Source: Reichenbachiella agariperforans
GTDB taxonomy: Bacteria; Bacteroidota; Bacteroidia; Cytophagales; Cyclobacteriaceae
Assembly: GCF_900142205.1 (NCBI RefSeq)
Contig: NZ_FRAA01000003.1
Coordinates: 124,001-188,000, forward strand
Length of the DNA: 64,000 bases
Reading direction: 5' to 3'
Made by a program: the position numbers and the translations under genes. The notes below the pieces were generated by a model. The model saw nothing but the letters and a program-made list of their open reading frames with translations, was not told the DNA's origin and did no database searches. How positions within the stretch are numbered: position 1 is the stretch's first letter; each line of letters begins with the position of its first letter. Positions 2 to 19,504 of this stretch are shown here, piece by piece.

Positions 2-3000
2 CTGATCCCCCTTCTTATTGTTTGTATTTTTTTTGCAGGTCTATACGGGTTGTTTCACCTACAGATAGGTGAAAATTTAGATCAAACCTTGCCAGGTCAT
101 GATCAAAACTCCAGCATACAATCGTGGATAGACAAGCAAAAAAGTATCGTCGTATTTTCGCTGGACATTCCAATCAATATGACAATTGATGAGATAGAAC
201 CAATAGCCTCTGACCTTTCGAAACAAATCCAACAAACAGCTCTGATCCAAAACATACAATATCAGAACGACATAGACCCTGAAAGTTTCATCCAGCTGAT
301 ACAAGACAACCTCCCCATCTACCTAGAAGAAAAAGACTACACCCAGCTCGACAGTCTTATCGCACCAAGCTACATCACGCAAAAGCTCACCGACAACAAG
401 AAAACCCTCATGTCCCCAGAAGGGATAGGTCAAAGAAGACAACTGCTAGACGACCCACTAGGCTTTTCTCATCTGGCACTGGCACGGTTTGGGCAGCTAC
501 AGATGACAGATGACATCATCCAGAGTAATGGCTACTTTTTGATTCAAGACCGAAGCAAGCTACTCATCAAAGGACGGGCAACATTTGACATGGCCAACAG
601 TGCAGCCAACCGATCTGCGGCGCATACACTAGACAGTCTCGTAGCACAGTGGAACCAGACTCATGATGCGCATACGCTAGACTACTTTGGCACTTTCTTA
701 GTCGCGGATGAAAATGCTGAGCAAATCAAAAAAGACGTCCATCTCACGGTAACTATCGCAGTAGTGGCTATCATCCTATTACTAGCCTATTACTACCGCA
801 AAGCAATCATTCTAGTATTATTTCTTGTCCCAGGTGTGTTTGGCATCCTCACTGCTGCAGCATTCATCTACCTGATTCAAGGGCAAATTTCTGGGCTAGC
901 ACTGGCTGCCAGTGCCATTGTGTTCGGTATTGTGGCGGATTATTCGTTTCATTTTTTTACTCACTTTAAAGAGAATGGAAATGCCGTAAAGAGCCGAGAT
1001 GAAACCATGTTCCCACTCCTGATCAGTGCTGGCACGACCATCGTCGCATTTCTATCATTGCTATTTGCAGATTCTAAAACGTTGAATGACTTTGGGCTTT
1101 TTACCTCCCTGAGTCTGGCAGGAACGCTGTTCTTTATACTTACAGCCCTGCCTTTGATTCTGCGCCGCTTTGAAAAAGGTATCAAGTTCACAAAAACCAA
1201 TCCTCTTGACCGACTATTTGCTAAAATCAAAATAGGACAAAGCATACCTAGCAAATGGAGTATGTTCATTTTTATTGGCCTCACAAGCTGGATGCTATAC
1301 ATGGGCATAGACGTGCAGTTCGAAAGTGATCTGCGCAAAATCAACTACTACCCCGACGAACTCCAGCAACGGGAGATCGCACTACGCAACACCCATCCTA
1401 CTACCGAACAGCACCTCACTATGCTCTCCGTCGCAGCTGACGACCACAGCCCAGAATGGAACAATGAGCAGCTCGCCGACAAACTACATGAACTACAAAA
1501 CCAAAACATCATCAAGTCTCATTTTTCCCTTGCGCCTTTTCTAATATCCAAAGAAAAACAACAGGAGAGAATAGCAAGATGGAACAGCTATTGGGAACAA
1601 AAAAGAACCCCTTTCTTGCACTCATTTCAAAATGCAGCGACGCAGCAAAACTGGAAACCACAGTATTTCGATAGGTTCTACGACATGGTAGAAAACGATT
1701 ATCAAACCTACGACCTCAACGATTTCATAGCAAGTAGTGACAACCTCAGCGACATGACGCTAACAGACGAAGAACACACCGAAATCCTCACTACAGTCGT
1801 CTGTCCGATCGATCAAGTAGACAGTGTCAAACAAGAATTAGCCTCACTTTCGGGCATCGTACTCATAGACAATATGAGCATCGTCACCAAAATCGTAGAT
1901 AGCGTCAAAGACGACTTCAATTTTCTACTACTCTATGCTGGATTGGCGGTATTCATCGCCTTCCTACTCATCTATGGCAATATCGAGCTGACGCTCGTTT
2001 CGTTCATCCCCATGGTGCTAAGCTGGATCTGGGTACTTGGCATGGCATCTCTTTTGGATGTCAAATTCAACTTCATCAACATCATCCTGACCACCTTTAT
2101 CTTCGGTCTAGGTGATGACTTTAGCATCTTCGTCACGGACGGACTCCTGCATCGCTATAAGTACCGCAAAGAAGTCATGGGACAGTATAAAACAGGGATC
2201 GTACTCTCCTCCGTCTCTACCATCATAGGTACTGGCGTTTTGCTATTCGCCAAACATCCTGCGCTACAATCCATCGCACTGCTAAGTATCATCGGGATTG
2301 GCATCATAGTACCCATCACATTTTTTATCCAGCCGGTACTTTTCAGGATGCTAATCAGTCACCGTACCGAAGAGGGAAAACCTCCCTATTCCATCGCCAA
2401 TATTCTGTTCAGTATCTGGGGATATGGCATGTTTATCGGCGGTAGTCTATTGAGTGTAGCGATGACTTTTGGACTAAAGATGTTACCTCTCTCTACGGAA
2501 ACAAAAAAACTAGGCACGCATCGCATTCTCCAAAAAGTATCAGGTTTCCAACTCGATATTCTGTGGAAAAGTAAAAAGCGCCACATCGGAATGGAAAATC
2601 TGGATTTTGCCTCTCCATCGATTATCATCGCTAATCATACATCCTTCTTTGACATATTGGCATTGGTTAGGTTACATCCCAAGATGGTACTGCTCGTCAA
2701 CGAGTGGGTATATAACTCTCCCCTCTTTGGACCAGCGATTCGCTACGCGGACTACATCCCAGCCTATCAAAACATGGAGGATCAGCTACCCAAGCTACGC
2801 CAACTCGTAGCGGATGGCTACACCATAGCCATCTTCCCAGAAGGAAAAAGATCAGAAGACGGCACAATGGGTAGATTTCACAAAGGAGCCTTCTACCTAT
2901 CCGAAGAACTCCAACTAGACATCACACCGATATTACTGTATGGGCATGGCTATGTCATGCCTAAGAATGAGTACTACTTCAAAGACTCTCCCTGTGACAC

Positions 3001-3778
3001 AGTCATCCTACCACGTATCTCATGGAACGACCCGAAATTCGGATCAGGGTATCGTGAGCGTACAAAAAAAATATCTACGTACTATAAAGCTGCCTTTAAG
3101 ACATATATTGAAAGTACAGCCTGTCTCGATCACGCCTATGCACCACTTCTGTATAGTTTTTATTACAAAAGCCCTATACTACCTTGGTATTTCCGAATAA
3201 AGTGGCGCTTTGAAAAAAACAACTACGAACACTACCATCAACTCATCGGAACGGGGACTAAAAGAATCTATGACCTAGGCTGTGGGTATGGTTACTTAAG
3301 CTACTTTCTATGGCTGAGAAATAACGAGCGAACCGTTATTGGGGTAGACTATGATAATGAAAAAGTAGCCTTAGCACAAAATAGCTATTTGAAATCAGAC
3401 CAAGTAGAATTCACAGTCGACAAAGCAGAAGAAACATCTATCCAAGACGCAGACGCCATAGTACTAGCAGATACGCTCCACTATCTATCTCCAGAGTCAC
3501 AACAACAGTTACTAATTAAATGTGATCAAGGTCTAAAACCTGGCGGAATCCTATTAATAAGAGACGGCATTTCTGATCAAGAAGAAAAACACAAATGGAC
3601 AGAGAAATCGGAAAAATGGTCTACTCAATTAATCAAGTTCAACAAGACCAATGGAGCGCTACATTTCATAAAAAAAAGGGAAATAGAAGCATGGGCAGAG
3701 CATCATCACTATAGCCTATCTATAGAGTCACAATCGGATAAATCTTCTAACACACTATTTATTCTCTCCAAGAATTAA
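2..3778 (+). CDS. RND/MMPL-family exporter fused to acyltransferase and methyltransferase (5' truncated)
   Basis: The reading frame is open to the left edge, and the residues before the first possible start (TTG at 50) form a hydrophobic helix, so the true N-terminus lies outside the window. Counting from 50, residues 1 to about 800 form an RND/MMPL exporter with two sets of transmembrane helices (first near 230-390, second near 640-790). Residues about 840-1040 are a PlsC-like acyltransferase with NHTSFFD near 861 and FPEGKR further on. Residues about 1070-1242 are a class I SAM methyltransferase with DLGCGYGYLS near 1074. Related exporter-acyltransferase genes are known from aryl-polyene and flexirubin clusters, where they are thought to move the acylated pigment to the outer membrane. 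The substrate here is inferred from the neighbours. The gene ends just before a strong palindrome. Confidence 0.85.
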   Translation: MIPLLIVCIFFAGLYGLFHLQIGENLDQTLPGHDQNSSIQSWIDKQKSIVVFSLDIPINMTIDEIEPIASDLSKQIQQTALIQNIQYQNDIDPESFIQLIQDNLPIYLEEKDYTQLDSLIAPSYITQKLTDNKKTLMSPEGIGQRRQLLDDPLGFSHLALARFGQLQMTDDIIQSNGYFLIQDRSKLLIKGRATFDMANSAANRSAAHTLDSLVAQWNQTHDAHTLDYFGTFLVADENAEQIKKDVHLTVTIAVVAIILLLAYYYRKAIILVLFLVPGVFGILTAAAFIYLIQGQISGLALAASAIVFGIVADYSFHFFTHFKENGNAVKSRDETMFPLLISAGTTIVAFLSLLFADSKTLNDFGLFTSLSLAGTLFFILTALPLILRRFEKGIKFTKTNPLDRLFAKIKIGQSIPSKWSMFIFIGLTSWMLYMGIDVQFESDLRKINYYPDELQQREIALRNTHPTTEQHLTMLSVAADDHSPEWNNEQLADKLHELQNQNIIKSHFSLAPFLISKEKQQERIARWNSYWEQKRTPFLHSFQNAATQQNWKPQYFDRFYDMVENDYQTYDLNDFIASSDNLSDMTLTDEEHTEILTTVVCPIDQVDSVKQELASLSGIVLIDNMSIVTKIVDSVKDDFNFLLLYAGLAVFIAFLLIYGNIELTLVSFIPMVLSWIWVLGMASLLDVKFNFINIILTTFIFGLGDDFSIFVTDGLLHRYKYRKEVMGQYKTGIVLSSVSTIIGTGVLLFAKHPALQSIALLSIIGIGIIVPITFFIQPVLFRMLISHRTEEGKPPYSIANILFSIWGYGMFIGGSLLSVAMTFGLKMLPLSTETKKLGTHRILQKVSGFQLDILWKSKKRHIGMENLDFASPSIIIANHTSFFDILALVRLHPKMVLLVNEWVYNSPLFGPAIRYADYIPAYQNMEDQLPKLRQLVADGYTIAIFPEGKRSEDGTMGRFHKGAFYLSEELQLDITPILLYGHGYVMPKNEYYFKDSPCDTVILPRISWNDPKFGSGYRERTKKISTYYKAAFKTYIESTACLDHAYAPLLYSFYYKSPILPWYFRIKWRFEKNNYEHYHQLIGTGTKRIYDLGCGYGYLSYFLWLRNNERTVIGVDYDNEKVALAQNSYLKSDQVEFTVDKAEETSIQDADAIVLADTLHYLSPESQQQLLIKCDQGLKPGGILLIRDGISDQEEKHKWTEKSEKWSTQLIKFNKTNGALHFIKKREIEAWAEHHHYSLSIESQSDKSSNTLFILSKN

Positions 3779-3927: not shown

Positions 3928-4629
3928 ATGCTAGATATCTCAATTGTTATAGAGGAAGAGTACTACAACAAAGACCCTCAGTCCACGGAACTTGGCAAAA
4001 ACATCATTTCAGCCAGCATTTCCCTCCTAAACGAGCTCGGTTTCGAACAGTTCACTTTTAAAAAACTAGCTGAAAAAATTAAATCGACAGAAGCCTCAGT
4101 CTATAGATACTTTGACAATAAACTGAAGATGTTGCTGTACCTCACGCGCTGGTACTGGGCATGGTTAGAATATCAAATCGACTATCAGACACACCATATT
4201 CGGACTCCGGAGGAAAAGCTCAAAGAAATCCTCAAAATTCTCAGTTATAGTCAAACCGAAACGTCTCAAATCACTATCTGTGGAACTGACACAATCTCCC
4301 TGAGACGTGTCGTCATGAGTGAGTCTGACAAAACCTACTTGAACAAGCAAGTAGATGAAATCAATAGTCAGGGACTCTTTAGAGGCTTCAAAAAACTATG
4401 TCACAAAATCGCAGAAGTACTGATAGAAATCAATCCAACATATGGCTACCCTCATGCATTGGTGAGTAACATCTTAGAGACCACTCACCAGCAAACGTTC
4501 TTTGCCAACCACCTGCCTTCTTTGACAGAAATATCGACCAAGAAAGAGCAGTCACTCAACGTCCAAGTCTATGATTTCATCGAAGATATGATTTTCAAAG
4601 TATTGAAAAACGTACCTCAACAAACCTGA
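3928..4629 (+). CDS. TetR/AcrR-family transcriptional regulator
   Basis: This 233-residue protein has a TetR-type helix-turn-helix at about residues 24-70, including FTFKKLAEKIKSTEASVYRYF. The C-terminal part would be the ligand-binding and dimerisation domain and has no recognisable signature. TetR repressors usually control a neighbouring exporter. This one is the first gene of an apparent operon, 14 nt ahead of the ABC gene and followed by HlyD and TolC genes, so it probably represses that pump. A 15-bp palindrome just upstream could be its operator. The ligand is unknown; a pigment intermediate is a reasonable guess. Confidence 0.85.
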   Translation: MLDISIVIEEEYYNKDPQSTELGKNIISASISLLNELGFEQFTFKKLAEKIKSTEASVYRYFDNKLKMLLYLTRWYWAWLEYQIDYQTHHIRTPEEKLKEILKILSYSQTETSQITICGTDTISLRRVVMSESDKTYLNKQVDEINSQGLFRGFKKLCHKIAEVLIEINPTYGYPHALVSNILETTHQQTFFANHLPSLTEISTKKEQSLNVQVYDFIEDMIFKVLKNVPQQT

Positions 4630-4643
4630 AAAGCACTACCACT

Positions 4644-6356
4644 ATGAACCAAAATCAGAGCTCCCAAGAAGTTAAGCTGACTCCTTTCAAACGGCTTTTC
4701 AGAATGCTATCCCTAGACAAGCGAGAGATCCTGATCATCTATGCCTACGCCATATTCAATGGACTGATCAACCTATCACTTCCGCTCGGAGTTCAGGCTA
4801 TTATAGGTTTTGTGATTAGTGCCGAATACTCTGCATCTCTTAGTATTTTGATATTTATAGTGGTTCTAGGTGTAGCTGCAGCGGGAATCATTCAGATTCT
4901 ACAATTGTCACTCACGGAACTACTACAACGCAGGATTTTTGCCCGTTCTTCCTTCGAGTTTGCCTACCGCATCCCTCGGTTCAAAATGGAGTCTATCTCT
5001 GGATTCTATGCTCCTGAGCTTATGAATAGATTTTTTGATACACTTAATATCCAAAAAGGGCTTTCCAAAATCCTCATCGATGTATCTAGTTCTACTTTGC
5101 AAATCATCTTCGGATTGTTGTTACTATCGCTCTACCATCCGTTTTTTGTTTTCTTTGGTATTACCCTCGTTAGCCTTGTTACATTGATCTTTTTCCTAAC
5201 TGGCCCCAAAGGTCTAAAAACAAGTATTCTTGAATCCAAATACAAGTATCAAGTGGCACACTGGTTGGAAGAGCTAGCAAGGGTTATGGGTACTTTTAAA
5301 CTAGCAGGAAAAACCGATCTACCTATCGATAAGATGAATGAATATGTAGGAAACTATCTCAAATTCAGAAAACAACATTTCCATATACTTATCCTCCAAT
5401 TTTCTAATATCGTAGGATTCAAAACAGTGATTACCGCTGGCTTACTGATCCTAGGTAGCATATTGGTCATCAATCAAGAAATCAATTTAGGTCAATTTGT
5501 GGCTTCTGAGATTATCATACTACTGGTGCTCAGCTCTGTCGAAAAACTGATACTCAGTATGGAGACCGTCTACGATGTACTCACTGGAATCGAAAAGCTC
5601 GGACAAGTGACCGATATAGAGATGGAAAATGAAGATGGAATAGACCTAGAAGCCATGACCGTGGGTAAGAAAATCTCAGTAGAGTTATCAAATCTTACTT
5701 TTTCCTACCCCTCTACTACCTCCCCTGCGATACAGAACCTCAACCTGAAAGTAGAAGCGGGTGAAAAAGTATGTATCACTGGAGTAAATCAATCCGGAAA
5801 ATCAACGTTAATAGCACTCATATCAGGCTTATACAGTCACTACGATGGATCTATCATGTTTAATGGTGTACCGCTAAGCAACCTAAATACGATGAGTTTT
5901 CGGTCCGTCATAGGTGACAACCTTAGCATGCAAGACTTATTCTATGGCACACTAGCTGAAAACATCACTGTAGGAAAAAAGCAAATAGACACAGCGGATA
6001 TACTCTGGGCTATCAAGCAAGTAGGCTTGAGCGAATACTTCAAAGAGCTGACCAAAGGGCTCAACACCATGATACAACCAGAAGGTCAAGGTCTATCCTC
6101 TAGTGTACGACAAAAAATCATCCTCGCCCGTACTATAGCCGAAAGACCCAAAATCATCGTCATGGACAACACGCTGCAAGGGCTAGAATTCACAGACAGA
6201 AAACTCATCAGTACGATCCTAACCTCTCCAGAGCAACCATGGACACTACTAGCTGTAACCAACGATCCACTGATGATGAACCATTCGGACAAAATCGTCA
6301 CCATGGAAAAAGGCAACATAGTCGATATCAAAGAACAAAAACCATCAATAATCTAA
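4644..6356 (+). CDS. ABC exporter half-transporter with degenerate ATPase motifs
   Basis: This is a 570-residue fused membrane and ATP-binding protein. Hydrophobic helices fill residues about 25-310 and the nucleotide-binding domain follows from about 345. Walker A is intact (GVNQSGKST, about 380-388). The other catalytic elements depart from the family: the Q-loop position reads DNLSMQD, the signature LSGGQ is replaced by LSSSV (about 484), the residue after the Walker B aspartate is Asn instead of Glu (IIVMDN, about 503), and the switch histidine position reads VTND (about 537). No N-terminal peptidase domain is seen. It lies between TetR and HlyD genes and would form a tripartite efflux or type I secretion-like pump. 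Whether it hydrolyses ATP is uncertain. Confidence 0.85.
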   Translation: MNQNQSSQEVKLTPFKRLFRMLSLDKREILIIYAYAIFNGLINLSLPLGVQAIIGFVISAEYSASLSILIFIVVLGVAAAGIIQILQLSLTELLQRRIFARSSFEFAYRIPRFKMESISGFYAPELMNRFFDTLNIQKGLSKILIDVSSSTLQIIFGLLLLSLYHPFFVFFGITLVSLVTLIFFLTGPKGLKTSILESKYKYQVAHWLEELARVMGTFKLAGKTDLPIDKMNEYVGNYLKFRKQHFHILILQFSNIVGFKTVITAGLLILGSILVINQEINLGQFVASEIIILLVLSSVEKLILSMETVYDVLTGIEKLGQVTDIEMENEDGIDLEAMTVGKKISVELSNLTFSYPSTTSPAIQNLNLKVEAGEKVCITGVNQSGKSTLIALISGLYSHYDGSIMFNGVPLSNLNTMSFRSVIGDNLSMQDLFYGTLAENITVGKKQIDTADILWAIKQVGLSEYFKELTKGLNTMIQPEGQGLSSSVRQKIILARTIAERPKIIVMDNTLQGLEFTDRKLISTILTSPEQPWTLLAVTNDPLMMNHSDKIVTMEKGNIVDIKEQKPSII

Positions 6357-6366
6357 AGGAAGAATC

Positions 6367-7731
6367 ATGCTCAATATATCACACAATTCGATCGACAGAG
6401 ATGAGATTCTCAAAAACCAATCTTCCTATCAGGAGGTCATGCGTACGAAAGCCTCTAGAACACTGGTTCGGCTACTTTCTGTATTATTTTTCCTAGGATT
6501 TGTAATGCTGTTTCTCCCATGGACTCAAAGCATACGGGCACGAGGTACACTCACAACATTGAGACCAGAAAACCGGGAACAAGAGATTCATTCGGTGATC
6601 TCTGGTCGCGTCGAAAAATGGTTCGTCAGAGAAGGACAGTTCGTCGCTAAAGGAGACACAATCATCTTCATCTCTGAGATGAAATCAGAATACCTCGATC
6701 CAGACCTCATCGAAAAATCCAAGAACCAAACCAATGCCAAGGAAGCTTCAATCACATCCTATAAAAGTAAAGCAGAGGCACTTAGAAATCAAATTGATGC
6801 ACTAGAAAACAACCAAAAACTGAAACTCAAACAAGCGAAGAACTATCTAAGTCAACAGCGTCTAAAGGTGAATTCGGACAGCATAGAATACGAAACTGCG
6901 ATCATCAATCTAGACATAGCCCAAAAACAATTTGCCCGACAAGAGAAGCTGTATGAACAAGGATTAAAATCCCTAACAGAACTAGAACAACGAAGACAAA
7001 AGCTACAAGAAGCCGTCAATAAAAAAACTTCCTACCAAAACAAATGGTTCACGAGTCAAAACGAACTAATCAACGCACAACTCAATATCAATACCATCCA
7101 AGGGGAGTTTCAAGAGAAAATCGCCAAAGCACAATCCGACCTCATGTCTGCAGTTTCCATGTCCTTGGAGGCAGAGAGCGACTACAACAAACTGTCCATT
7201 CAGCAGTCCAACTATACACAGCGTTCTGGATTCTACTATATCAAAGCCCCACAAGACGGGTATGTCACCAGAGCCATCACCACTGGAATAGGTGAGACAG
7301 TCAAAGAAGGAGACCCCATTTTCAGTTTTATCCCATCGGATTACGATTTAGCCCTTCAAATGTACATTCGACCCATCGATTTACCTCTAGTAGAGGAAGG
7401 GCGAAAAGTACAGATCCAATTTGATGGATGGCCTGCTTTGGTTTTCAGTGGCTGGCCCAACCTCTCCTTTGGAACCTACACGGGCCGAGTGGTCGCCTAT
7501 GACAAAGCCGCTACTGCCAACGGTGAGTTTAGAGTATTGGTATCTCCAGACCCTGACTCGCCCGAATGGCCACAATTGCTCAGGATAGGGTCTGGTGCCT
7601 ATGGCATCTCTTTACTCAAAAATGTCCCTATCTGGTACGAAATGTGGCGAAACCTCAATGGTTTTCCTCCCGATTTTTATATCAATGAACAATTGAAAGA
7701 ACCAAAAGCTAAAAAAGGTAAGGTAAAATGA
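6367..7731 (+). CDS. HlyD-family membrane fusion protein
   Basis: This 454-residue periplasmic adaptor has one transmembrane helix near residues 36-55. A first biotinyl-lipoyl half follows (ISGRVEKWFVREGQFVAKGD, about 75-95), then a long coiled-coil hairpin (about 115-290) and a second lipoyl half (PQDGYVTRAITTGIGETVKE, about 298-320). The last third contains the beta-barrel. Adaptors of this type connect an inner-membrane ABC exporter to a TolC channel, and both partners flank it. An AAGGAAG sequence precedes the ATG. The stop codon overlaps the TolC start (ATGA), so the two genes are translationally coupled. Confidence 0.9.
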   Translation: MLNISHNSIDRDEILKNQSSYQEVMRTKASRTLVRLLSVLFFLGFVMLFLPWTQSIRARGTLTTLRPENREQEIHSVISGRVEKWFVREGQFVAKGDTIIFISEMKSEYLDPDLIEKSKNQTNAKEASITSYKSKAEALRNQIDALENNQKLKLKQAKNYLSQQRLKVNSDSIEYETAIINLDIAQKQFARQEKLYEQGLKSLTELEQRRQKLQEAVNKKTSYQNKWFTSQNELINAQLNINTIQGEFQEKIAKAQSDLMSAVSMSLEAESDYNKLSIQQSNYTQRSGFYYIKAPQDGYVTRAITTGIGETVKEGDPIFSFIPSDYDLALQMYIRPIDLPLVEEGRKVQIQFDGWPALVFSGWPNLSFGTYTGRVVAYDKAATANGEFRVLVSPDPDSPEWPQLLRIGSGAYGISLLKNVPIWYEMWRNLNGFPPDFYINEQLKEPKAKKGKVK

Positions 7732-9131
7732 ATCGTATCATACTATTTTTCGTTTCAACACTGCTCATACAGCTGACCCATTCAGTTCATGCCCAAGAGT
7801 CAAATCAAGTACTTTCCCTTGATGATTTCTATCAAATGGTGGTCAATAACCATCCTGTGGCTCGTCAAGCCCGACTACTCAACCAACGTGGAGAGTTAGC
7901 GATCCAACAAGCAAAAGGTCAATTTGACCCGAAGCTCTCTTCAAGTTATAATAGCAAAGAATACAACGGAAAGGACTATTACAACCTATGGAATAGTTAC
8001 TTGGAGATGCCCACCTTACTCAACGTGGACTTTAAGGCAGGGTATGAAAGAAACAGCGGAACATATCTAAACCCGGAGCACAATGTCCCCACAGATGGAT
8101 TATACTATGCAGGGATCTCAGTACCGCTAGGACAAGGTTTGATCCATAATCCTCGAAAGATCAACCTACAAAAAAGTCGCTATGAAGAGCAGCAATACAT
8201 GAATGAATCCGTTCTGGTGTTAAACAACCTGTTGTATGATGCTAACCATGCCTTTTGGTGGTGGTACGAGTTTCATCAGAAGTACGTCGTAGTACAAAAC
8301 AACTTGACTTTAATGCGCAATCGTTTCGAGGCAATCAAAGAATCTGTAGCCAATGGAGAAAACGCAGCAGTAGACTCTTTAGAAACACTAATTCAAGTCC
8401 AAAAATGGCAAAACCTACACAGAGACGCGCAGATGCAACTACAAAACAGTACACTGTACATGAACAACTATATTTGGTCGGATAGTCTAGAGATAGACAT
8501 GTTCGAACCCAAGTATGCTACCCAAAACACGCTATTGGATTTTGTAGCACTCGAAGAGCAAATATTAGCTTCGCATCCTAATCTAAAGAAGTTGACCCTA
8601 AAAAATGAAATTCTAGAACTGGATCGTAAACTGAGTGTAGAACAGATCAAACCTGTTTTGGATGTGAATTACAACTTTTTGTTACATCAGCAGGACAATG
8701 AATATGACACCTACTTTAACAACAACTACAAATTAGGCTTTCAATTCGAGTTCCCGATTTTGGTAAGAAAGGAGCGTGCAAAACTGCAAAGCACAAAACT
8801 AAAAATTCAGGAGAATGAATTAATGATTGATGAAAAAACGAGACAAACGCTAAACAAAGTCCGACAATCCTACAACAAGGTGCTTACTCTCAATCAAATG
8901 ATAGCACAACAGGAAGAGATCCTCGCCAACTACCAAAGACTCCTAGTGGCAGAGCAAATCAAGTTTAACAATGGAGAAAGCTCGGTATTCCTACTCAATA
9001 GTCGTGAAAACAAAAAGCTAGAAAGTGAGCTCAAATTGATCGAACTTCGTGCAAAGTATGGCAAATCCATCGGTGAGCTCAAATGGTCCGCTGGTATATT
9101 GCATCAAGAAATTCAAGACCTCACACTATAA
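7728..9131 (+). CDS. TolC-family outer membrane efflux protein
   Basis: This 467-residue protein starts with a signal peptide ending near HSVHAQ (residue 23). It has the two internally related, helix-rich halves of the outer membrane efflux protein family, with long amphipathic helices near 180-240 and 370-440. Its start overlaps the adaptor gene by 4 nt. It should be the outer-membrane duct of the TetR-controlled pump. The substrate is unknown; the setting suggests the pigment or a precursor. Confidence 0.9.
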   Translation: MNRIILFFVSTLLIQLTHSVHAQESNQVLSLDDFYQMVVNNHPVARQARLLNQRGELAIQQAKGQFDPKLSSSYNSKEYNGKDYYNLWNSYLEMPTLLNVDFKAGYERNSGTYLNPEHNVPTDGLYYAGISVPLGQGLIHNPRKINLQKSRYEEQQYMNESVLVLNNLLYDANHAFWWWYEFHQKYVVVQNNLTLMRNRFEAIKESVANGENAAVDSLETLIQVQKWQNLHRDAQMQLQNSTLYMNNYIWSDSLEIDMFEPKYATQNTLLDFVALEEQILASHPNLKKLTLKNEILELDRKLSVEQIKPVLDVNYNFLLHQQDNEYDTYFNNNYKLGFQFEFPILVRKERAKLQSTKLKIQENELMIDEKTRQTLNKVRQSYNKVLTLNQMIAQQEEILANYQRLLVAEQIKFNNGESSVFLLNSRENKKLESELKLIELRAKYGKSIGELKWSAGILHQEIQDLTL

Positions 9132-9140
9132 ATCACCATT

Positions 9141-9506
9141 CTAAACAAGAACTGATGATTGATTCACTTTATGGTTAAAATTCTCGATCAGAGCACGTTC
9201 CTCTGGTACGATTCCTTCGTAGGCGTTGGCCATACGATTCATCAAGTCTAGGAAGTAAGGCATGTGTACATCAGTCTTCAAAGTCTGAAATATCCGCATG
9301 TTTTTATAGAATACCATTTTGGGATCCATCTCTAGATTCATCGCCGCATCAAAGGACAATTTGATGCGGTGCGCCCAGTCATCTTGATCAACCATCTTTT
9401 GCAAGGCTTCTCTTTCTTCTTTCTGGATACCTCCATCTGCCATAGCTAGGGCATAGAGGATTTTTCCAAATACATCTAGGGTTATTTCATCGGGATTGTT
9501 CATCAT
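9141..9506 (-). CDS. TerB-like small cytoplasmic protein
   Basis: This 121-residue protein is all-helical and acidic, with no signal peptide or membrane segment. The N-terminal stretch (GKILYALAMADGGIQKEEREAL, abbreviated here) has the ADGxxxxEE pattern of TerB/DjlA-type helical domains, and PEERALIENF near the end resembles the second repeat. TerB domains are often tied to envelope stress or metal response, but no specific function can be given. It converges on the TolC gene, 9 nt away, and is transcribed from the same gap as the divergent methyltransferase. Met1 and Met2 are adjacent, so the start could be 3 nt shorter. Confidence 0.6.
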   Translation of the reverse strand: MMNNPDEITLDVFGKILYALAMADGGIQKEEREALQKMVDQDDWAHRIKLSFDAAMNLEMDPKMVFYKNMRIFQTLKTDVHMPYFLDLMNRMANAYEGIVPEERALIENFNHKVNQSSVLV

Positions 9507-9899
9507 GCTTTTGGTTTTAGAACAGGCGTTCTATGTTTAGTAAATCAGTCAAAAAATCAAATCACTTTGATCAGAAAAATGCACTATAATAATCACATAA
9601 GCACATTTACCACTTCCACAATTGAGTACTATTTCCTCCATTTAAAGGTAGTCGATTAATCACTCATAACCAACGTTTTAACACTTATTAATACACTAGT
9701 AAATAACCAATCCTCCTTTCCTAAACAGAAACTAAAAACGGCATAAAACTCACCACAAGAGACATAACTCTAATCAGAATCTAATCTTGTTTTTCACGAT
9801 TTATCAAAATATCATGGCTTATTTGTGTGACTAGAAAGACAGATCGACTTATCTTTTCGTCTTGATAGTTTTTAAGAGAGTAGATTGACAGAATCACAC
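9507..9899. other. AT-rich divergent intergenic region
   Basis: About 390 nt lie between the divergent TerB-like and methyltransferase genes. No credible ORF or RNA is seen. A short inverted repeat, TAGAAC-aggc-GTTCTA (9518-9533), lies 11 nt before the TerB-like start and could be an operator. Both promoters should be here, but no clear TAnnTTTG element was found. Confidence 0.5.
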
Positions 9900-10949
9900 A
9901 TGAATATATCCGCAATAGACGCTAAATACGAAGCACAAAAAATTGCTTTTGCCCCAATAACTTTCCAAGCCATCATGGCGATGAAAAACCTAGGTGTCAT
10001 GGAGTACATCTACAAAAAAAGAGGGAATGCTACCCAAGCTGAAATCATTGAAGATCTAGGCATTAGTAAGTACTCGGTAGAGGTTATGTTAGAAACCGCT
10101 GAAGTGATGGATATCATCGAAACCAAGGAGGGAAAATTATCTCTCTCGAAGATTGGTTTTTTCCTATTGCGTGATGAGTTGACTCGTGTCAATATGAACT
10201 TCGTCAATGATGTATGCTACGACGGATCTAAATATCTCGAAGAATCACTCGCAACGAACAAGCCAGCTGGACTCAAAGTATTTGGTGAATGGGACACCGT
10301 GTACGAAGGTTTATCTAAGCTAGAGAAGCCAGTCAGAAAATCATGGTTGGAGTTTGATCACTTCTATTCTCAAGATGCTTTTGACTCTGCGTTAGAGATT
10401 GTATTCAAAAACAAACCAGGTAAGCTGTTCGATATAGGTGGCAACACGGGCAAGTGGTCTATCAAATGCTGCGGTTATGATTCTGATGTGAATATTAAAA
10501 TTTTGGATCTACCAGGGCAGATCGAAATGGCAAAAAAGAACATCGCTGATAACAACCTACAGGACAGAATTGAGTTTCATCCCATCAACCTGCTAGACAC
10601 CACACAAAAAATTCCACAGGGAGCTGACGTCATCTGGATGAGTCAGTTCTTAGACTGTTTCTCAGAAGAGGAAATCTTAGTGATCCTACTCAACTGCGCA
10701 CAGGCATCTACCAAGGATACGACCATTTACATCATGGAGCCTTTCATTGATAATCAGCCCTATGAAGCTGCCACCTACTCTCTGGTCGCTACTTCACTAT
10801 ACTTTACATGTATCGCGAATGGCAACAGTAAGATGTACAAACTGGAGACTTTCAAGGAACTGATAGACAAAGCAGGTATGCAAATCATCGAAACCCACGC
10901 ACTCATCGGTGATAGCTACCACACCATATTGGCTTGTAAGTTGAAATAA
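9900..10949 (+). CDS. SAM-dependent O-methyltransferase (plant/acetylserotonin type)
   Basis: This protein of about 349 residues has an N-terminal winged-helix dimerisation region (about 10-90, with NATQAEIIEDLGISKYSVEV) and a C-terminal class I SAM-binding fold. Motif I is DIGGNTGK (about 178-185). ILDLPGQIEMAKKN follows as the acidic ribose-binding strand, then DVIWMSQFLDCFSEEE. This is the layout of the Methyltransf_2 family, whose members methylate aromatic hydroxyls. In a flexirubin-type cluster it could methylate an aryl ring. ATG at 9900 was chosen; a TTG at 9885, preceded at a good distance by AAGAGAG, would add five residues. The gene stands alone between oppositely oriented genes. 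Confidence 0.75.
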   Translation: MNISAIDAKYEAQKIAFAPITFQAIMAMKNLGVMEYIYKKRGNATQAEIIEDLGISKYSVEVMLETAEVMDIIETKEGKLSLSKIGFFLLRDELTRVNMNFVNDVCYDGSKYLEESLATNKPAGLKVFGEWDTVYEGLSKLEKPVRKSWLEFDHFYSQDAFDSALEIVFKNKPGKLFDIGGNTGKWSIKCCGYDSDVNIKILDLPGQIEMAKKNIADNNLQDRIEFHPINLLDTTQKIPQGADVIWMSQFLDCFSEEEILVILLNCAQASTKDTTIYIMEPFIDNQPYEAATYSLVATSLYFTCIANGNSKMYKLETFKELIDKAGMQIIETHALIGDSYHTILACKLK

Positions 10950-10960
10950 CAACTATAAAT

Positions 10961-11308
10961 TTATAGCGCATCACAGCTGTCTCGAGTCTCATCGAGACTC
11001 GTATTCCATTGATCTAAACCATCACGATAAGCTTGCTTTTGAGCACCGGGGATGCAATCGAGATATTCATACACTTCAGTGACATAAGTATCCATAGCGG
11101 ATACATAGCTATTGCATGTCGAGGTTGTAGGATCATTGGTATATGCAGTCTGTGCAGCAGTCAACTCTTCTAAAAGGCTGTTAATCTCTGTATCATAACC
11201 ATTGCAGCCAAACAGATCATCTTCTATAGAATCTTTGACTTTACACGCACTACTAAGTGCGGTGAGTGAAATGAATATCACTACGAACGGAAGTTTAGAT
11301 TTAAACAT
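10961..11308 (-). CDS. Small cysteine-containing lipoprotein of unknown function
   Basis: This 115-residue protein has a signal sequence ending in LSSAC, which puts the lipid-modified cysteine at residue 22. The mature part is predicted helical and contains several further cysteines (for example DLFGCNGYD, STCNSY, YLDCIPG, DSCDAL) that could form disulfides in the periplasm. No family is recognised. It converges on the methyltransferase gene, 11 nt away, and reads in the same direction as the halogenase-like gene, from which it is separated by a terminator. It probably has its own promoter in the 102-nt gap. Confidence 0.6.
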   Translation of the reverse strand: MFKSKLPFVVIFISLTALSSACKVKDSIEDDLFGCNGYDTEINSLLEELTAAQTAYTNDPTTSTCNSYVSAMDTYVTEVYEYLDCIPGAQKQAYRDGLDQWNTSLDETRDSCDAL

Positions 11309-11329
11309 AAAGAATCTAGTATAGGTGAA

Positions 11330-11349
11330 TAAAAAAGCCCAATCGGGCT
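11330..11349 (-). terminator. Rho-independent terminator of the halogenase-like gene
   Basis: On the minus strand AGCCC-gatt-GGGCT is followed by a run of six T. It lies about 60 nt beyond the stop codon of the minus-strand flavoprotein gene and before the small lipoprotein start, so it should end that transcript. Confidence 0.7.
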
Positions 11350-11410
11350 AATATTCACTTAACGAAAACACCTCCAAAATATTGACTAGGATGTATAAAA
11401 TCTAATTGGG

Positions 11411-12649
11411 TTATTTAGACTTTTCAGAAGCAGCATCTACTTCCATATCTACCACATGAGCCACAGTCTTAATAAGCTTCCGGTTTCGTTTCACAAAAGG
11501 ATTGGTCAAATCCCAAACATAACCAGCCAAAATTGAGGTCAGTTGTTTTTTTATTTCCACCTTGATTTCGGAATGAAAAAATATTTTTTGTAACTCCCCA
11601 TTGTACCAAGTGTCTACGACTGCCTTGAATACCTCTGTGGCTTGTTTCATATGCTGCACATACTCCTTATCCCAGTCAGGTTTTTCTCCATTTAATTCTC
11701 GTTCGATCAACTTTGCACTACGCATCGCGGACTCTGTAGCGATCGCTACTCCTGACGAAAACACAGGATCGATGAACCCCGTAGTATTACCAGCCAGTGC
11801 AAAACGATGACCATACAACTGTGTAGAAGAATTGGTGTAATCATCCGCTCCTCGCACGTCATACAAAAATTCTTTGCCCTCAAATCGCTCAATGAAATGC
11901 TCGGATTTCTCCATCATCTTACGAAACAAATCATTCTTATCCGCTGCTGGAATATCGAACCATTTCTTATTCCCTACAAAACCTAACGAAGTATTGCCAT
12001 TAGAAAATGGGATCACCCAATACCATAGATCCTGCTCCAGAACCTCAAAAGTAATGCGGAGTGGTCGTTTGAATTCCTCACGGTTGGTCTCTTTCACCTG
12101 AGTAAAAAGCGAACACCTGCCCGTCTCTGCATAGTCGATATCAAAGTTGAGCATTTTGGATAACACGCCAGCATTACCACTAGAGTCCAATACATATCTA
12201 AACTCGTGCGTCTCAACTTTACCGCCATCCTCTATCTCCGTGACAACTTTATCTTCTTGAAAATCTATAGAAGCAATAGTTGACTCGTATTTGAAATTAG
12301 CGCCTTTCTTCTCAGCTTCCTTGGCAAGGATGTGGTCGAACTCATCTCGTGGCACCTGCCAAGTCCAAGTCCAACCTGGGGTGAAATTTTCATCAAACGA
12401 AATATCCATTTCGTCATCCTTTCGAACAAATAACGCACCTGACTTTACTTCAAAATTCGCAGCCTTCAATGCATCCAGCATACCCACTTCTTCGAAGTGT
12501 TCCATACTCAAGGGTAACAAACTCTCACCGATCGTAAATCGCGGAAACTTTGATTTCTCAACCACAGTCACACTAAAACCCTGATTCACTAAATACGCTG
12601 CTGCTACACTACCTGCTGGACCAGCTCCTATCACCAATACATCCGTCAT
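11411..12649 (-). CDS. Probable flavin-dependent halogenase / FAD oxidoreductase
   Basis: This 412-residue protein has an N-terminal FAD-binding motif (VLVIGAGPAGSVAA, residues 4-17) and FPRFTIGESLLP (35-46), typical of the tryptophan-halogenase and geranylgeranyl-reductase superfamily. It carries WYWVIP at 209-214, matching the WxWxIP motif of flavin-dependent halogenases, and a lysine in FEVKSG (Lys69) near where the catalytic lysine is expected. Flexirubins of some Bacteroidota are chlorinated on the ring, which fits. The alternative is a non-halogenating oxygenase or reductase of the same fold. It is divergent from the C45-acpS operon with a 143-nt gap and ends at a clear terminator. It would need a separate flavin reductase, which is not in the window. 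Confidence 0.75.
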   Translation of the reverse strand: MTDVLVIGAGPAGSVAAAYLVNQGFSVTVVEKSKFPRFTIGESLLPLSMEHFEEVGMLDALKAANFEVKSGALFVRKDDEMDISFDENFTPGWTWTWQVPRDEFDHILAKEAEKKGANFKYESTIASIDFQEDKVVTEIEDGGKVETHEFRYVLDSSGNAGVLSKMLNFDIDYAETGRCSLFTQVKETNREEFKRPLRITFEVLEQDLWYWVIPFSNGNTSLGFVGNKKWFDIPAADKNDLFRKMMEKSEHFIERFEGKEFLYDVRGADDYTNSSTQLYGHRFALAGNTTGFIDPVFSSGVAIATESAMRSAKLIERELNGEKPDWDKEYVQHMKQATEVFKAVVDTWYNGELQKIFFHSEIKVEIKKQLTSILAGYVWDLTNPFVKRNRKLIKTVAHVVDMEVDAASEKSK

Positions 12650-12737
12650 TTTTTGTTATTTTTCCCCGACTATTCCGCTTCTATTCATCTCCAATAGATC
12701 AATGATTAGAGATGAAATCGCTAAAATTGCGCTTTGG

Positions 12738-12745
12738 TATCTTTG
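12738..12745 (+). promoter_or_regulatory. Candidate -7 promoter element of the C45-acpS operon
   Basis: TATCTTTG matches the Bacteroidota -7 consensus TAnnTTTG. It lies 47 nt before the TTG start at 12793. No good -33 TTTG was found at the usual distance, so support is partial. Confidence 0.3.
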
Positions 12746-12792
12746 CAATAGATAAGGCTAGTCTAGATTTTGTCCAAAACTAAAAAATACTA

Positions 12793-14445
12793 TTGAAAAA
12801 GCGTTATATATTTTTAATCGTACTCTCGGTGATATCTACCCTCAGTGCTATCTGGTTTGTACAACGTGTCATCTACGATACGCCCACACTCCCTGTCTCT
12901 ACTGTGCATTCGTCACAGTTAGAAATGATCGCGGAGCATCACTATGCGCTGGGAAACTCATGGCTCAAGCAAAATAAATACGGTAACTGGGAGAGCTATA
13001 TCGAAGGGAGTGCCTACGACAGAGGTCGTACGATCGGTATCCTCCATCAACAGCTGATTCAGGATCAAGAAAAAGTATTCGTGGATGAAATCGACAGAAA
13101 CGTCTCCTCATGGTTTCTCCGAAAAATGCTCATACTAGGCATATCATGGTTTAACCGAGACCTAGATCAATACATTCCCGAAGAGTACCGTCAGGAAATA
13201 TATGGTATATCTGAATTCTTCTCCGACGAATATGACTACATCGGCCCTAAATTCAACCGTATCATCAACTACCATGCTGCCCATGACATAGGCCATGCCG
13301 TACAAAATATGCATTTAGTCGGTTGTACATCTGTAGGAATATGGAACTTCAACGACTCGACAGAGCTAATGATGTCCGGCCGAAACTTCGACTTCTACTT
13401 TGGTGATGAATTTGCCAAAAATAAAATCGTACTACTCTGCAATCCTTCCGAGGGCTATAAGTATCTCTCTGTCACTTGGGGTGGATTCTGTGGTATCGTC
13501 TCAGGGATGAACGAACATGGACTTAGCATCACACTAAACTCCGCCATCTCAGAGATCCCTACTAAGTCAGGTACTCCTGTCTCTATTATTGCCAGAGACA
13601 TCTTACAGTATGCAGCCACCATCGATGAAGCCAAAACCATAGCAAATCGCTATGACAGCTTTGTCTCTGAGCTATTTACTATCTCATCTCTGAAGGATAA
13701 ACAAATGGCTGTGATAGAAAAGTCCCCAACAAACACTGGGGTATTCTACCCATCCGAAGACACCTTGATCGTCACCAACCACTACCAAAGTAAAGAACTC
13801 AAAGATATTCCTCTCAATCAGGAACACATGATCAACTCCGAATCTGTAGATCGCTATACCCGTACAAAAGAGCTCACCGCCCAGCTCCCTAAATGTAATA
13901 CAGAGGGCATCGCAGGAATCCTCCGCAACCAAGCGGGTATTAAGGATAAAGACCTTGGTATTGGCAATCCTAAAGCGATCAACCAGTTACTCGCACATCA
14001 TGCAGTTCTCTTTGACAATGTCAAGAAGCGCGTTTGGGTCTCCAACTATCCTTTTCAGGAAAATGTCTTTGACACCTATGATTTAAATGACTTTGATCAA
14101 TGGCCAGGTACAAAAAACGATATTACGATTGATTCACTCTCTATCGCAGCTGACCCGTTTTACTTTAGCGAAGGCTATCAGACATTTAAAGTCTTCAAGC
14201 AGCTCAAGGCCAAAATCATCCGCCAGACGGCCAAAGAGCAACCCATGGACAGTACACTAATCCAAACCTTCCTAGAGACGAACCCTGCCTACTACGAAAC
14301 CCATCGACTCGTCGGCAACTACTACGCTAGCCTAGGGCAAAACGAAAAAGCCATCGCTGCCTATCGCGAGGGATTGACCAAAAATATCGCCTACAAAGAG
14401 GATGAAACGTTCATGAAAGAACAAATCAAAACGCTCACCCCATGA
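12793..14445 (+). CDS. C45-family autoproteolytic acyltransferase/hydrolase, membrane anchored
   Basis: This 550-residue protein starts at TTG with a basic-hydrophobic segment (residues 2-22) that acts as a signal anchor. The C45 (penicillin acyl-coenzyme A acyltransferase-like) core carries LVGCTSVGIWNF, where Gly177-Cys178 would be the self-cleavage site and nucleophile, followed by SGRNFDFYFGDEF. The C-terminus (about 495-535, ETHRLVGNYYASLGQNEKAI) resembles a TPR hairpin. It is the first gene of a tight operon with acpS, an AMP-ligase and an oxidoreductase. C45 proteins form or hydrolyse amide or ester bonds, so it may acylate or trim the pigment outside the inner membrane. The specific reaction is inferred. 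The 3' end overlaps acpS by 4 nt. Confidence 0.75.
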   Translation: MKKRYIFLIVLSVISTLSAIWFVQRVIYDTPTLPVSTVHSSQLEMIAEHHYALGNSWLKQNKYGNWESYIEGSAYDRGRTIGILHQQLIQDQEKVFVDEIDRNVSSWFLRKMLILGISWFNRDLDQYIPEEYRQEIYGISEFFSDEYDYIGPKFNRIINYHAAHDIGHAVQNMHLVGCTSVGIWNFNDSTELMMSGRNFDFYFGDEFAKNKIVLLCNPSEGYKYLSVTWGGFCGIVSGMNEHGLSITLNSAISEIPTKSGTPVSIIARDILQYAATIDEAKTIANRYDSFVSELFTISSLKDKQMAVIEKSPTNTGVFYPSEDTLIVTNHYQSKELKDIPLNQEHMINSESVDRYTRTKELTAQLPKCNTEGIAGILRNQAGIKDKDLGIGNPKAINQLLAHHAVLFDNVKKRVWVSNYPFQENVFDTYDLNDFDQWPGTKNDITIDSLSIAADPFYFSEGYQTFKVFKQLKAKIIRQTAKEQPMDSTLIQTFLETNPAYYETHRLVGNYYASLGQNEKAIAAYREGLTKNIAYKEDETFMKEQIKTLTP

Positions 14446-14813
14446 TAGCAGGAATAGGTACTGATATCGTGGAAACAGATCGATTCAAAAAAAAACTTCT
14501 TAACCTCCCTTTTCTACAGACGGTTTTCACACCCCTAGAAATAGCCTACTGCCAAAAAATGGGGCATCCAGAGCAGCACTTCTCTGCTCGTTTTGCCGCA
14601 AAAGAGGCCTATATGAAAGCGCTCGGGACAGGGTGGGCAGAAGGAGCAGATTTTAAAGAAATCGAAGTACAAAACAATGCAGAAGGAGCCCCCTCTATTC
14701 ACCTACTAGGAGGAAGTAAAAGATATTTTGATAAATCAGAACTGAAAGACATATTTGTATCATTAAGTCACACGAGTACTCATGCTGTGGCTTACCTAAT
14801 CATAACTAAGTAG
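14442..14813 (+). CDS. acpS: Holo-[acyl-carrier-protein] synthase
   Basis: This 123-residue protein has both AcpS signatures: GIGTDIVETDRF (residues 4-15, metal-binding Asp8) and FSARFAAKEAYMKALG (47-62, Glu55). It transfers 4'-phosphopantetheine from CoA to a serine of acyl carrier proteins. It overlaps the preceding gene (ATGA) and lies within the pigment operon, so it probably activates the ACPs of the polyene synthase rather than serving only fatty-acid synthesis. A separate housekeeping copy may exist elsewhere. The length is normal for the family. Confidence 0.92.
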   Translation: MIAGIGTDIVETDRFKKKLLNLPFLQTVFTPLEIAYCQKMGHPEQHFSARFAAKEAYMKALGTGWAEGADFKEIEVQNNAEGAPSIHLLGGSKRYFDKSELKDIFVSLSHTSTHAVAYLIITK

Positions 14814-14818
14814 GCATT

Positions 14819-16120
14819 GTGGAGATAGACCCAAACCAAGATTATTTATCCAAATCAGAGATACGACAGTTGCAAAACGAGTGCTTCCTCTCCCACCTAA
14901 AGTACACCTACTCCCATGCCAAGCACTATCGGGACAAACTAGATAAGTGCGGTATAACACTTGAAGATATCTCAAGTCTAGATGACCTCACGAAAATCCC
15001 TGTTACGACCAAAGAAGAGATCGAAACGAACAATCTAGACTTTCAGGCAGTCAGCCCACGGTCTGTTGTAGAATATGTCACCACCTCCGGCACGCTAGGC
15101 AATCCCATCAGTATTGCGCTAACACTCGAAGACCAAAAGCGGCTCACTTGGAACGAAAAACGTTCGTTGAATATGTGTGGCATCACTGCGGATGATGTGA
15201 TACAGATCACCACGACACTAGACAAGCGTTTCATGGCGGGTATCGCCTACTACTTAGGCGCGACAGCACTAGGTGCTGCTGTGATCCGATCGGGTATCGG
15301 TGATCCAGATTTTCAGTTGGATAATATCCGTCGCTTTCAACCCACCGTACTGATCGCAGTTCCCTCATTCGCTTACAAATTCGGCAACTATCTACTCTCT
15401 AAAGGAATAGATCCTAAAAGCACCTCGATCCGAAAGATCGTTTGTATAGGCGAACCGATTAAAGACACATCCTTTGCTCCCAATACACTCAACCAAAAAC
15501 TGATGGAAATCTGGGATGTACAATTGTACTCTACCTATGCCAGTACAGAAATGGCGACAGCCTTTACCGAATGTGAAGCGGGTCAAGGGGGACATCTACT
15601 ACCCGAACTAGTTCACGTAGAGCTACTCGATGATCAGAATCAGCCCGTAGCAGATGGTGAAGTCGGTGAGGTGACGGTCACTCCTTTTGGAATCGAAGGC
15701 ATGCCGCTGCTCCGCTACAAAACAGGCGATCTAGCTCGTCTGCATACAGAAACTTGTAGCTGTGGTCGCAACACGAGCCGGCTTGGCCCTGTAGAAGGGA
15801 GAAAAGGTCAGATGATCAAATGGAAAGGCACTACACTTTTTCCGCAGCAGATCGAAAACGTTCTGAATCATATCAGCGAAATCGACAATTACATCATCGA
15901 ACTGTCCCTAGACGATCTAGGGCTAGACCTACTCAAAGTGATACTGCCAGACCATCTGGAGCGCAATGTATTAGATCAGGCGCAGCGACTACTACAGCAA
16001 AGCCTGAGAGTCAATCCGATTTTAGAACAAAATACCGCGGCCTACATCGCCAGCGAAATCCTACCCAAAGGAAGTCGCAAGCCCAGAAGGTTCGTAGATA
16101 AACGACAGCTAGCCAATTGA
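14819..16120 (+). CDS. Phenylacetate-CoA ligase-like AMP-dependent ligase
   Basis: This 433-residue enzyme belongs to the adenylate-forming PaaK group. It has the phosphate-binding loop TTSGTLGNP (about 88-96), a YASTEMA motif in the middle and RYKTGDLARL before a small C-terminal domain. A CxC pair (ETCSCGRNTSRLG) follows, as in PaaK relatives. It would activate an aromatic acid as its adenylate for transfer to CoA or an ACP. In aryl-polyene and flexirubin pathways a 4-hydroxycinnamate starter is activated this way; that substrate is inferred. The start is GTG at 14819, 5 nt after the acpS stop. The end overlaps the next gene (TTGA). Confidence 0.8.
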   Translation: MEIDPNQDYLSKSEIRQLQNECFLSHLKYTYSHAKHYRDKLDKCGITLEDISSLDDLTKIPVTTKEEIETNNLDFQAVSPRSVVEYVTTSGTLGNPISIALTLEDQKRLTWNEKRSLNMCGITADDVIQITTTLDKRFMAGIAYYLGATALGAAVIRSGIGDPDFQLDNIRRFQPTVLIAVPSFAYKFGNYLLSKGIDPKSTSIRKIVCIGEPIKDTSFAPNTLNQKLMEIWDVQLYSTYASTEMATAFTECEAGQGGHLLPELVHVELLDDQNQPVADGEVGEVTVTPFGIEGMPLLRYKTGDLARLHTETCSCGRNTSRLGPVEGRKGQMIKWKGTTLFPQQIENVLNHISEIDNYIIELSLDDLGLDLLKVILPDHLERNVLDQAQRLLQQSLRVNPILEQNTAAYIASEILPKGSRKPRRFVDKRQLAN

Positions 16121-17643: not shown

Positions 17644-17647
17644 TCCC

Positions 17648-18667: not shown

Positions 18668-18711
18668 CCCTAAATAGTTTTTCGATCTGATCTCCAAGCA
18701 TAGATCAATGA

Positions 18712-19350: not shown

Positions 19351-19504
19351 CTCAATTTTGTTTGTGTAAAAATGGGCAGTCTATCTCAAAAGCCTATACC
19401 ACCGCAAGAAAAAACTATTACCGTTTAGTCTAGAGTGGTGTAGAAACGAGTCACTTTCGGGTAAGGTCGGAGCGATAAAAACCCAACAGGCTATCACCCT
19501 CCGA

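Follow-up and report, generated by a model that had tools for sequence, protein, structure and literature searches.

A widespread HlyD/TolC-linked ABC exporter family with a decayed ATPase probably draws on another energy source

From its sequence, the gene at positions 4644–6356 of the window (the whole 64-kb stretch of Reichenbachiella agariperforans DNA that we analysed) probably encodes the inner-membrane part of a TetR-linked HlyD/TolC exporter in whose family ATP hydrolysis has been abandoned, with protons as the probable driving ion. By gene content, the operon persists with no canonical ATPase and, in two groups of relatives, with no nucleotide-binding domain (NBD) either in the gene or nearby. 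The exporter belongs to a widespread family whose ATP engine has decayed, and in some relatives has been lost, probably in favour of another energy source.

The operon and its exporter

Positions 3928–9131 hold a tight same-strand run of four genes:

3928..4629, + strand: TetR-family regulator, the operon's first gene (Pfam TetR_N, 1.8e-8)
4644..6356, + strand: ABC exporter half-transporter with a degenerate NBD, 570 aa (Pfam, motifs, AlphaFold2, Foldseek)
6367..7731, + strand: HlyD-family periplasmic adaptor (Pfam HlyD_3, HlyD_D23)
7728..9131, + strand: TolC-family outer membrane channel (Pfam OEP, 3.8e-32)

Fourteen bases separate the TetR stop from the ABC start and 10 bases the ABC stop from the HlyD start, and TolC shares its first 4 bases with the end of HlyD. 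A sequence-only reading of this DNA had described the gene order and the HlyD/TolC linkage as intact, which Pfam upheld by placing HlyD (6367–7731) and TolC (7728–9131) directly after the ABC gene; the linked adaptor and channel that mark tripartite or type 1 export are both in the window.

The operon was compared with loci from relatives, among them a named collection of 80 loci kept out of 188 relatives, mostly Cytophagales and Saprospirales. Neighbouring genes were clustered at E ≤ 1e-8 with 50% coverage, taking in the window's first 40 kb and flanks of at most 8 kb per locus (about 1.5 kb for L006–L034). A TetR-cluster gene lies directly upstream on the same strand at 39 of the 73 named loci with at least 1 kb of upstream sequence, a linkage that suggests a small toxic or metabolic compound as substrate. 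HlyD and then TolC follow at 60 of the 67 named loci with at least 3 kb downstream, and at 7 they do not. HlyD and TolC of the usual clusters are absent directly downstream of L093, L095, L098, L101, L108, L109 and L111.

Beyond the operon, neighbours vary among loci apart from local synteny. The eleven genes directly 3′ of TolC (9141–20794) have no cluster mate among the fetched loci, a later gene (20905–25086) is a member of a common cluster, and the upstream MMPL gene clusters, besides the window's own locus, only with same-genus L006. On this comparison, the link of the exporter to the putative pigment genes looks local. Positions 50–3778 encode a 1242-aa single chain that joins an MMPL-type transporter region to an acyltransferase and a methyltransferase.

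The ORF at 4644–6356 (+) is genuine, with an ATG start and 570 aa, and Pfam identifies ABC_membrane and ABC_tran in its product. The AlphaFold2 model is confident (pLDDT 90.9) and contains six TM helices. Foldseek matched it to type IV ABC exporters, with the best E-value for TM287/288 and TM-scores of up to 0.88 for PCAT1, 0.87 for HlyB and 0.87 for MsbA. The architecture is that of the type IV (type I exporter) ABC fold, a six-TM transmembrane domain (TMD) followed by a C-terminal NBD, and comprises the following parts:

4677..5639, + strand: transmembrane domain, residues 12–332, the family's conserved part (pairwise identities)
5283..5318, + strand: coupling helix 2 region, residues 214–225 (AlphaFold2 helix 215–221)
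5487..5612, + strand: TM6, residues 282–323, with conserved E289, E300, D311 and K318
5673..6338, + strand: degenerate NBD, residues 344–565 (Pfam ABC_tran, 2.6e-19; motif table)
5781..5807, + strand: Walker A GVNQSGKST, residues 380–388, intact
5925..5927, + strand: Q-loop position, Ser428 instead of Gln
6093..6107, + strand: signature LSSSV (484–488) instead of LSGGQ
6165..6170, + strand: Walker B D508-N509, Asp kept and catalytic Glu replaced by Asn
6261..6263, + strand: switch position, Asn540 instead of His

Measured against a canonical ABC ATPase, Walker A is present, and LSGGQ, the catalytic Glu, the switch His and the Q-loop Gln are not. The motif alignment thereby confirmed the pattern of one intact and four replaced motifs described in the sequence-only reading; its further claim, that a homodimer would lack any canonical hydrolytic site, is borne out by the window protein's own sequence.

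Motif loss across the family

None of 110 aligned homologues retains the complete ATPase set; this table includes the partial rows L062, L075 and L091, and some genomes seem to be represented twice, once from each of two collections (for example L016/L060, L019/L056, L020/L086, L022/L061 and L027/L077). Of the 110, 107 keep the Walker A Lys (the other 3 have Arg) and 104 an A-loop aromatic, so ATP binding is probably still under selection in most members, the window's included. The two signature glycines never occur together (Gly in one column in 5 rows, in the next column in 3). Glu at the catalytic position is found in 6 homologues, with D-E together only in L074; the switch His and an aligned Q-loop Gln each occur in 1 of 110. 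In 46 of 110, Gln stands one column later, as in VSQED, which may be a Q-loop displaced by one position; the window protein has Met in that column. The substituted residues lean towards a distinct consensus, such as SNDP at the switch and NDFF at Walker B. As judged from the alignment, the degenerate motifs have become fixed in a large clade.

Searches at E ≤ 1e-60 recovered homologues from 49 of 59 relative genomes, and searches at E ≤ 1e-40 from 77 of 296 phylum genomes, one of the latter (G235, L122) being a canonical protein; with the TMD as sole query, 197 of 395 class genomes gave matches at E ≤ 1e-30. The phylum- and class-wide counts (77/296, 197/395 and the 10/395 given below) are search matches, part of which were read individually. 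The reading frame exceeds 700 aa at 42 of the 80 named loci (e.g. L018, L056, L020 and L093), with about 150 extra N-terminal residues; Pfam detected no domain in this extra stretch in the three proteins scanned (L056, L127 and L163).

Another 59 loci (39 + 20) were collected. Eight of them, from other classes of the phylum, keep D-E together with the switch His and, by these residues, may hydrolyse ATP; none of the eight has LSGGQ or an aligned Q-loop Gln, and near-signatures are present in L132 and L134 (LSTGQ) and in L127 (LPGGL). L122 is fully canonical. L121, L128 and L171 have in addition lost either the glycines of Walker A or the motif altogether. In total, 138 loci are classed as degenerate yet retain an NBD.

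One gene from Aureibacter tunicatorum pAT1 (L206, 4968–6620) is named 'ABC transporter ATP-binding protein' although its Walker A reads KYNATEKN; it is apparently the same gene as L121, with the same motifs. On a plasmid of Novosphingobium (Pseudomonadota), L207 (4653–7692) is a far relative, 28% identical in the TMD, that has a damaged NBD without Walker A and an adjoining HlyD-like gene; it keeps E289 and D311 and does not keep E300. This relative indicates that the kind may reach beyond Bacteroidota.

Relatives without an NBD

At ten loci (L115–L119 and L155–L159), the gene encodes a TMD only (334–367 aa stop-to-stop) and HlyD and TolC come immediately after it: the HlyD frame opens from 100 bases upstream to 64 bases downstream of the final TMD codon, and TolC follows. 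L154, a TMD-only candidate that ends at a contig end, was left out of the ten. In nine of the ten loci (9.8–13 kb each), no other ORF of at least 90 aa matches the window NBD at E ≤ 1e-4; L156 has one 24% NBD match about 4 kb away. A different clade carries TMD–HlyD single-frame fusions without an NBD, found in ten of 395 class genomes (E ≤ 1e-120), six of which were aligned end to end. Pfam ABC_tran was absent from two TMD-only and two fusion proteins and present in three full-length ones, and ABC_membrane scored above its cut-off in both TMD-only proteins and fusion L164 and below it in fusion L165 (24.2 of 28 bits). The structure model of a fusion is of low overall confidence (pTM 0.44), and the 50 Foldseek matches listed for it are all adaptor proteins, with no ABC TMD among them, so only the sequence architecture of the fusion is used here.

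TMD-only genes fall under family codes f11, f13, f18 and f22 and the fusions under f70, f78, f92, f95, f103 and f104. Genus g42 holds both a full-length member (G048, L162) and a TMD-only member (G222, L116), which lie in separate parts of the tree, and this pair suggests horizontal exchange. Within genus g224, fused (G683, G650) and separate-HlyD (G449, G573) forms both occur.

A careful tree included 31 of the 138 degenerate rows alongside the NBD-less ones; the five canonical proteins were left out of it, as were L169, L170 and L172, which are long, and its root was chosen on a clade of mostly Glu/His-keeping members. In this tree, full-length L163 is the neighbour of the TMD-only clade (100/99), and the fusions sit in another place, close to the eroded L171 (93/71); each of the two clades is whole in 100% of 200 bootstrap trees. 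The best tree requires two changes in NBD presence; a tree joining all 16 NBD-less rows has a log-likelihood 29.4 lower and is not rejected (p-AU 0.108). In a quick tree, which included 34 of the 138 degenerate rows and used canonical proteins as outgroups, the outgroup branches were very long and the root is untrusted. Because the root of the careful tree is chosen, we infer the direction from kept to lost residues, which the generally canonical state of ABC exporters supports. Before the trees and the conservation counts below, L120 and L154 (contig end) and L075, L091 and L153 (short or broken) were dropped.

Constraint on the transmembrane domain

Across 30 family members from the relative genomes (435 pairs), the TMD has a mean pairwise identity of 0.596 and the NBD one of 0.406, and the NBD is the more similar domain in a single pair; among 22 class-level degenerate members, it is so in 0 of 231 pairs. 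The control was a single canonical exporter, represented by 29 orthologues from the same relatives and less diverged than the family; its NBD exceeds its TMD in 355 of 406 pairs (means 0.773 vs 0.723). The eight Glu/His-keeping loci are intermediate (10 of 28 pairs). By this measure, the family's NBD is diverging faster than its TMD.

Coupling helix 2 docks on the NBD in this fold. Scored against the consensus of the degenerate group, its match is 0.58 in degenerate members, 0.32 in Glu/His-keeping ones, 0.07 in TMD-only members and 0.01 in fusions, making it the least kept region in both NBD-less groups, a result to which gaps contribute. The coupling helices are present in the window protein, whereas helix 2 can no longer be recognised in the NBD-less relatives, and coupling helix 1 matches at 0.60 in TMD-only members and 0.15 in fusions. 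TM4 is also poorly matched in the same groups (0.30 and 0.28), so the coupling-helix result, in part an effect of gaps, is not unique. The match of TM6 is kept (0.58 and 0.69).

Nine residues of the TMD (E92, K138, S198, K201, Y202, E289, E300, D311 and K318) are 95–100% conserved among 163 family members; those in TM6 reach 98% (E289), 95% (E300), 98% (D311) and 100% (K318). All nine are kept in TMD-only and fusion members, with E300 replaced by Asp in 2 of the 10 TMD-only proteins. On a helical wheel, E289, E300, D311 and K318 point to 0, 20, 40 and 20 degrees, on one face within 40 degrees. Five canonical proteins differ at these positions, except for Glu at 311 in two, Asp at 300 in one and Arg at 318 in all. 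The TMD alone has no PDB sequence relative at E ≤ 0.01, which makes solved structures unusable as a residue-level control for TM6.

Mechanism and alternatives

In the mechanism we favour, the TMD dimer would alternate access as in other type IV exporters, and an ion gradient, probably of protons, would drive it through the TM6 acids E289, E300 and D311, with E92 of TM2 perhaps joining the ion path. The substrate would be handed from the TMD dimer to HlyD and then to TolC. In members that keep Walker A, the window's among them, the NBD probably binds ATP in a regulatory or dimer-stabilising role, and ATP may regulate these members. The conserved TM6 charges can also serve gating or packing instead. 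The sequence-only reading had proposed selection for another mechanism, naming ATP-gated and proton-driven transport: the shared degeneracy does point beyond canonical hydrolysis, and proton drive is, by inference, the best-supported option, whereas ATP gating cannot be common to the family, given that some relatives carry the operon with no NBD at all.

Confined to NBD-bearing members, ATP gating, in which nucleotide binding and release or a slow non-canonical hydrolysis drives or gates the transporter, is an unlikely but serious competitor. It would account for the kept Walker A Lys and A-loop aromatic (107 and 104 of 110), for the persistence of an NBD at 138 degenerate loci and for the confident folding of this domain in the AlphaFold2 model. 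It sits poorly with the NBD-less relatives, which keep both the operon and the same TMD signature residues, with the missing Walker A glycines or motif in L121, L128 and L171, and with the faster divergence of the NBD.

We give the same low weight to transport that is neither ATP- nor ion-driven, with the TMD acting as a facilitated conduit or gated channel into HlyD and TolC and the substrate moving down its own gradient. Conserved charged residues in TM6 would be unexpected in such a conduit, and the window model retains an alternating-access ABC fold; the existence of NBD-less architectures suits it, as does the putative status of proton coupling in the family.

A heterodimer with a canonical half-transporter encoded elsewhere is very unlikely. 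The absence of a second half-transporter nearby, noted from the sequence, held up, as no other ABC_membrane gene lies in the 64-kb window. The genome has six ABC_membrane genes, and four of the five others were examined as partners: they have mostly canonical NBDs, as a partner would, but are 20–24% identical and lie on other contigs, which makes the partner encoded elsewhere that the sequence-only reading had offered improbable. The sixth gene (G000:C17:97963-98685) scored 51 bits and has a 543-aa frame. The flanks of the 80 named loci contain 15 other ABC-cluster genes, none adjoining the family gene; the nearest, at L101, is two genes away on the opposite strand, and the two possible half-transporters, at L066 and L073 (about 735 aa, one Walker A), are both five genes off. 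No second family member was found at E ≤ 1e-10 in the 16 NBD-less genomes (10 TMD-only, 6 fusion), where identity in the other matches peaks at 33% and the best E-value is 4e-39. An ATPase may be encoded elsewhere in these genomes, which counts against the proton-driven reading. Damage in this one chain reaches both halves of every composite site, so no partner would restore a fully canonical site.

Local decay or a pseudogene, which the several catalytic residues missing from the window copy might suggest and which orthologues with normal motifs would have favoured, is ruled out for practical purposes, because the orthologues share the losses (0 of 110 are normal; the eight Glu/His-keeping loci of other classes are more distant), their frames are open, the TMD is strongly conserved and HlyD and TolC follow in order at 60 of 67 loci.

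Discussion

These data can be read as a Bacteroidota ABC exporter lineage turning from primary to secondary transporter within tripartite pumps, in which the NBD was lost twice on the best tree and E289–E300–D311 took over coupling, a reading on which we are evenly divided. If it holds, living members would span the path from kept Glu and His, through pseudo-ATPase and deletion of the NBD, to TMD–adaptor fusion. An ABC-derived, ATPase-free energiser would then join the RND, MFS and ABC classes of tripartite pump. How an ATP-driven pump converts into a gradient-driven one is an open question for which SbmA shows mainly the end point; here a single operon exists in degenerate, NBD-less and adaptor-fused forms, so that comparison of natural relatives could take the conversion apart step by step. 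The annotation 'ABC transporter ATP-binding protein' may also stand on genes that do not encode ATPases, as with the Aureibacter copy and its lost Walker A glycines. We recognised no printed description of such a family in the open-licence PMC literature.

Comparison with known systems

In fold (TM-score up to 0.88 for PCAT1 and 0.87 for HlyB) and in HlyD/TolC operon logic, the exporter resembles HlyB/PCAT-type type 1 secretion, from which it differs in having no canonical ATPase site. Among the best 25 of 177 NCBIfam models matched, all scored below cut-off, led by TIGR03796 (190 vs 853 bits), and the type 1 secretion families LssB (177/693), HlyB (147/726) and PrtD (139/510 bits) were likewise short of theirs. 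EmrAB-TolC and the RND tripartite pumps are proton-driven and share the plan of inner-membrane pump, periplasmic adaptor and TolC; here, in contrast, the inner-membrane part is ABC-derived rather than MFS or RND. EmrA gave the best Foldseek E-value for the fusion model, with low TM-scores.

Non-catalytic site residues with an ATP-binding Walker A kept are also a feature of TmrAB, TM287/288 and MsRv1273c/72c. As described in two reports, these degenerate-site heterodimers keep one active site (PMC7756269; PMC12038006), whereas a homodimer of the window protein would keep none, and the window has no linked canonical partner of the kind that defines them.

Neither the window protein (E ≤ 0.01) nor seven relatives (E ≤ 0.1) matched the Pfam SbmA/BacA family model. 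The SLiPT hallmark of having no NBD is found only in the TMD-only and fusion relatives, the window protein having a degenerate one. According to one paper (PMC13316013), SbmA is an ABC-type TMD without an NBD that is proton-coupled via a glutamate ladder, is proposed to have arisen from an ABC transporter by loss of the NBD and the coupling helices, and imports peptides, and SLiPTs carry an extra TM0. The likeness to SbmA/BacA lies in an ABC-type TMD that would work without an NBD, in conserved acidic residues, in a proposed origin through NBD loss and perhaps, in the NBD-less relatives, in the loss of coupling helices; the differences are the HlyD and TolC genes in the operon, the six-TM model and the survival of degenerate-NBD intermediates. 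The window exporter is best read as a probable analogue of SbmA, yet one placed in an export pump.
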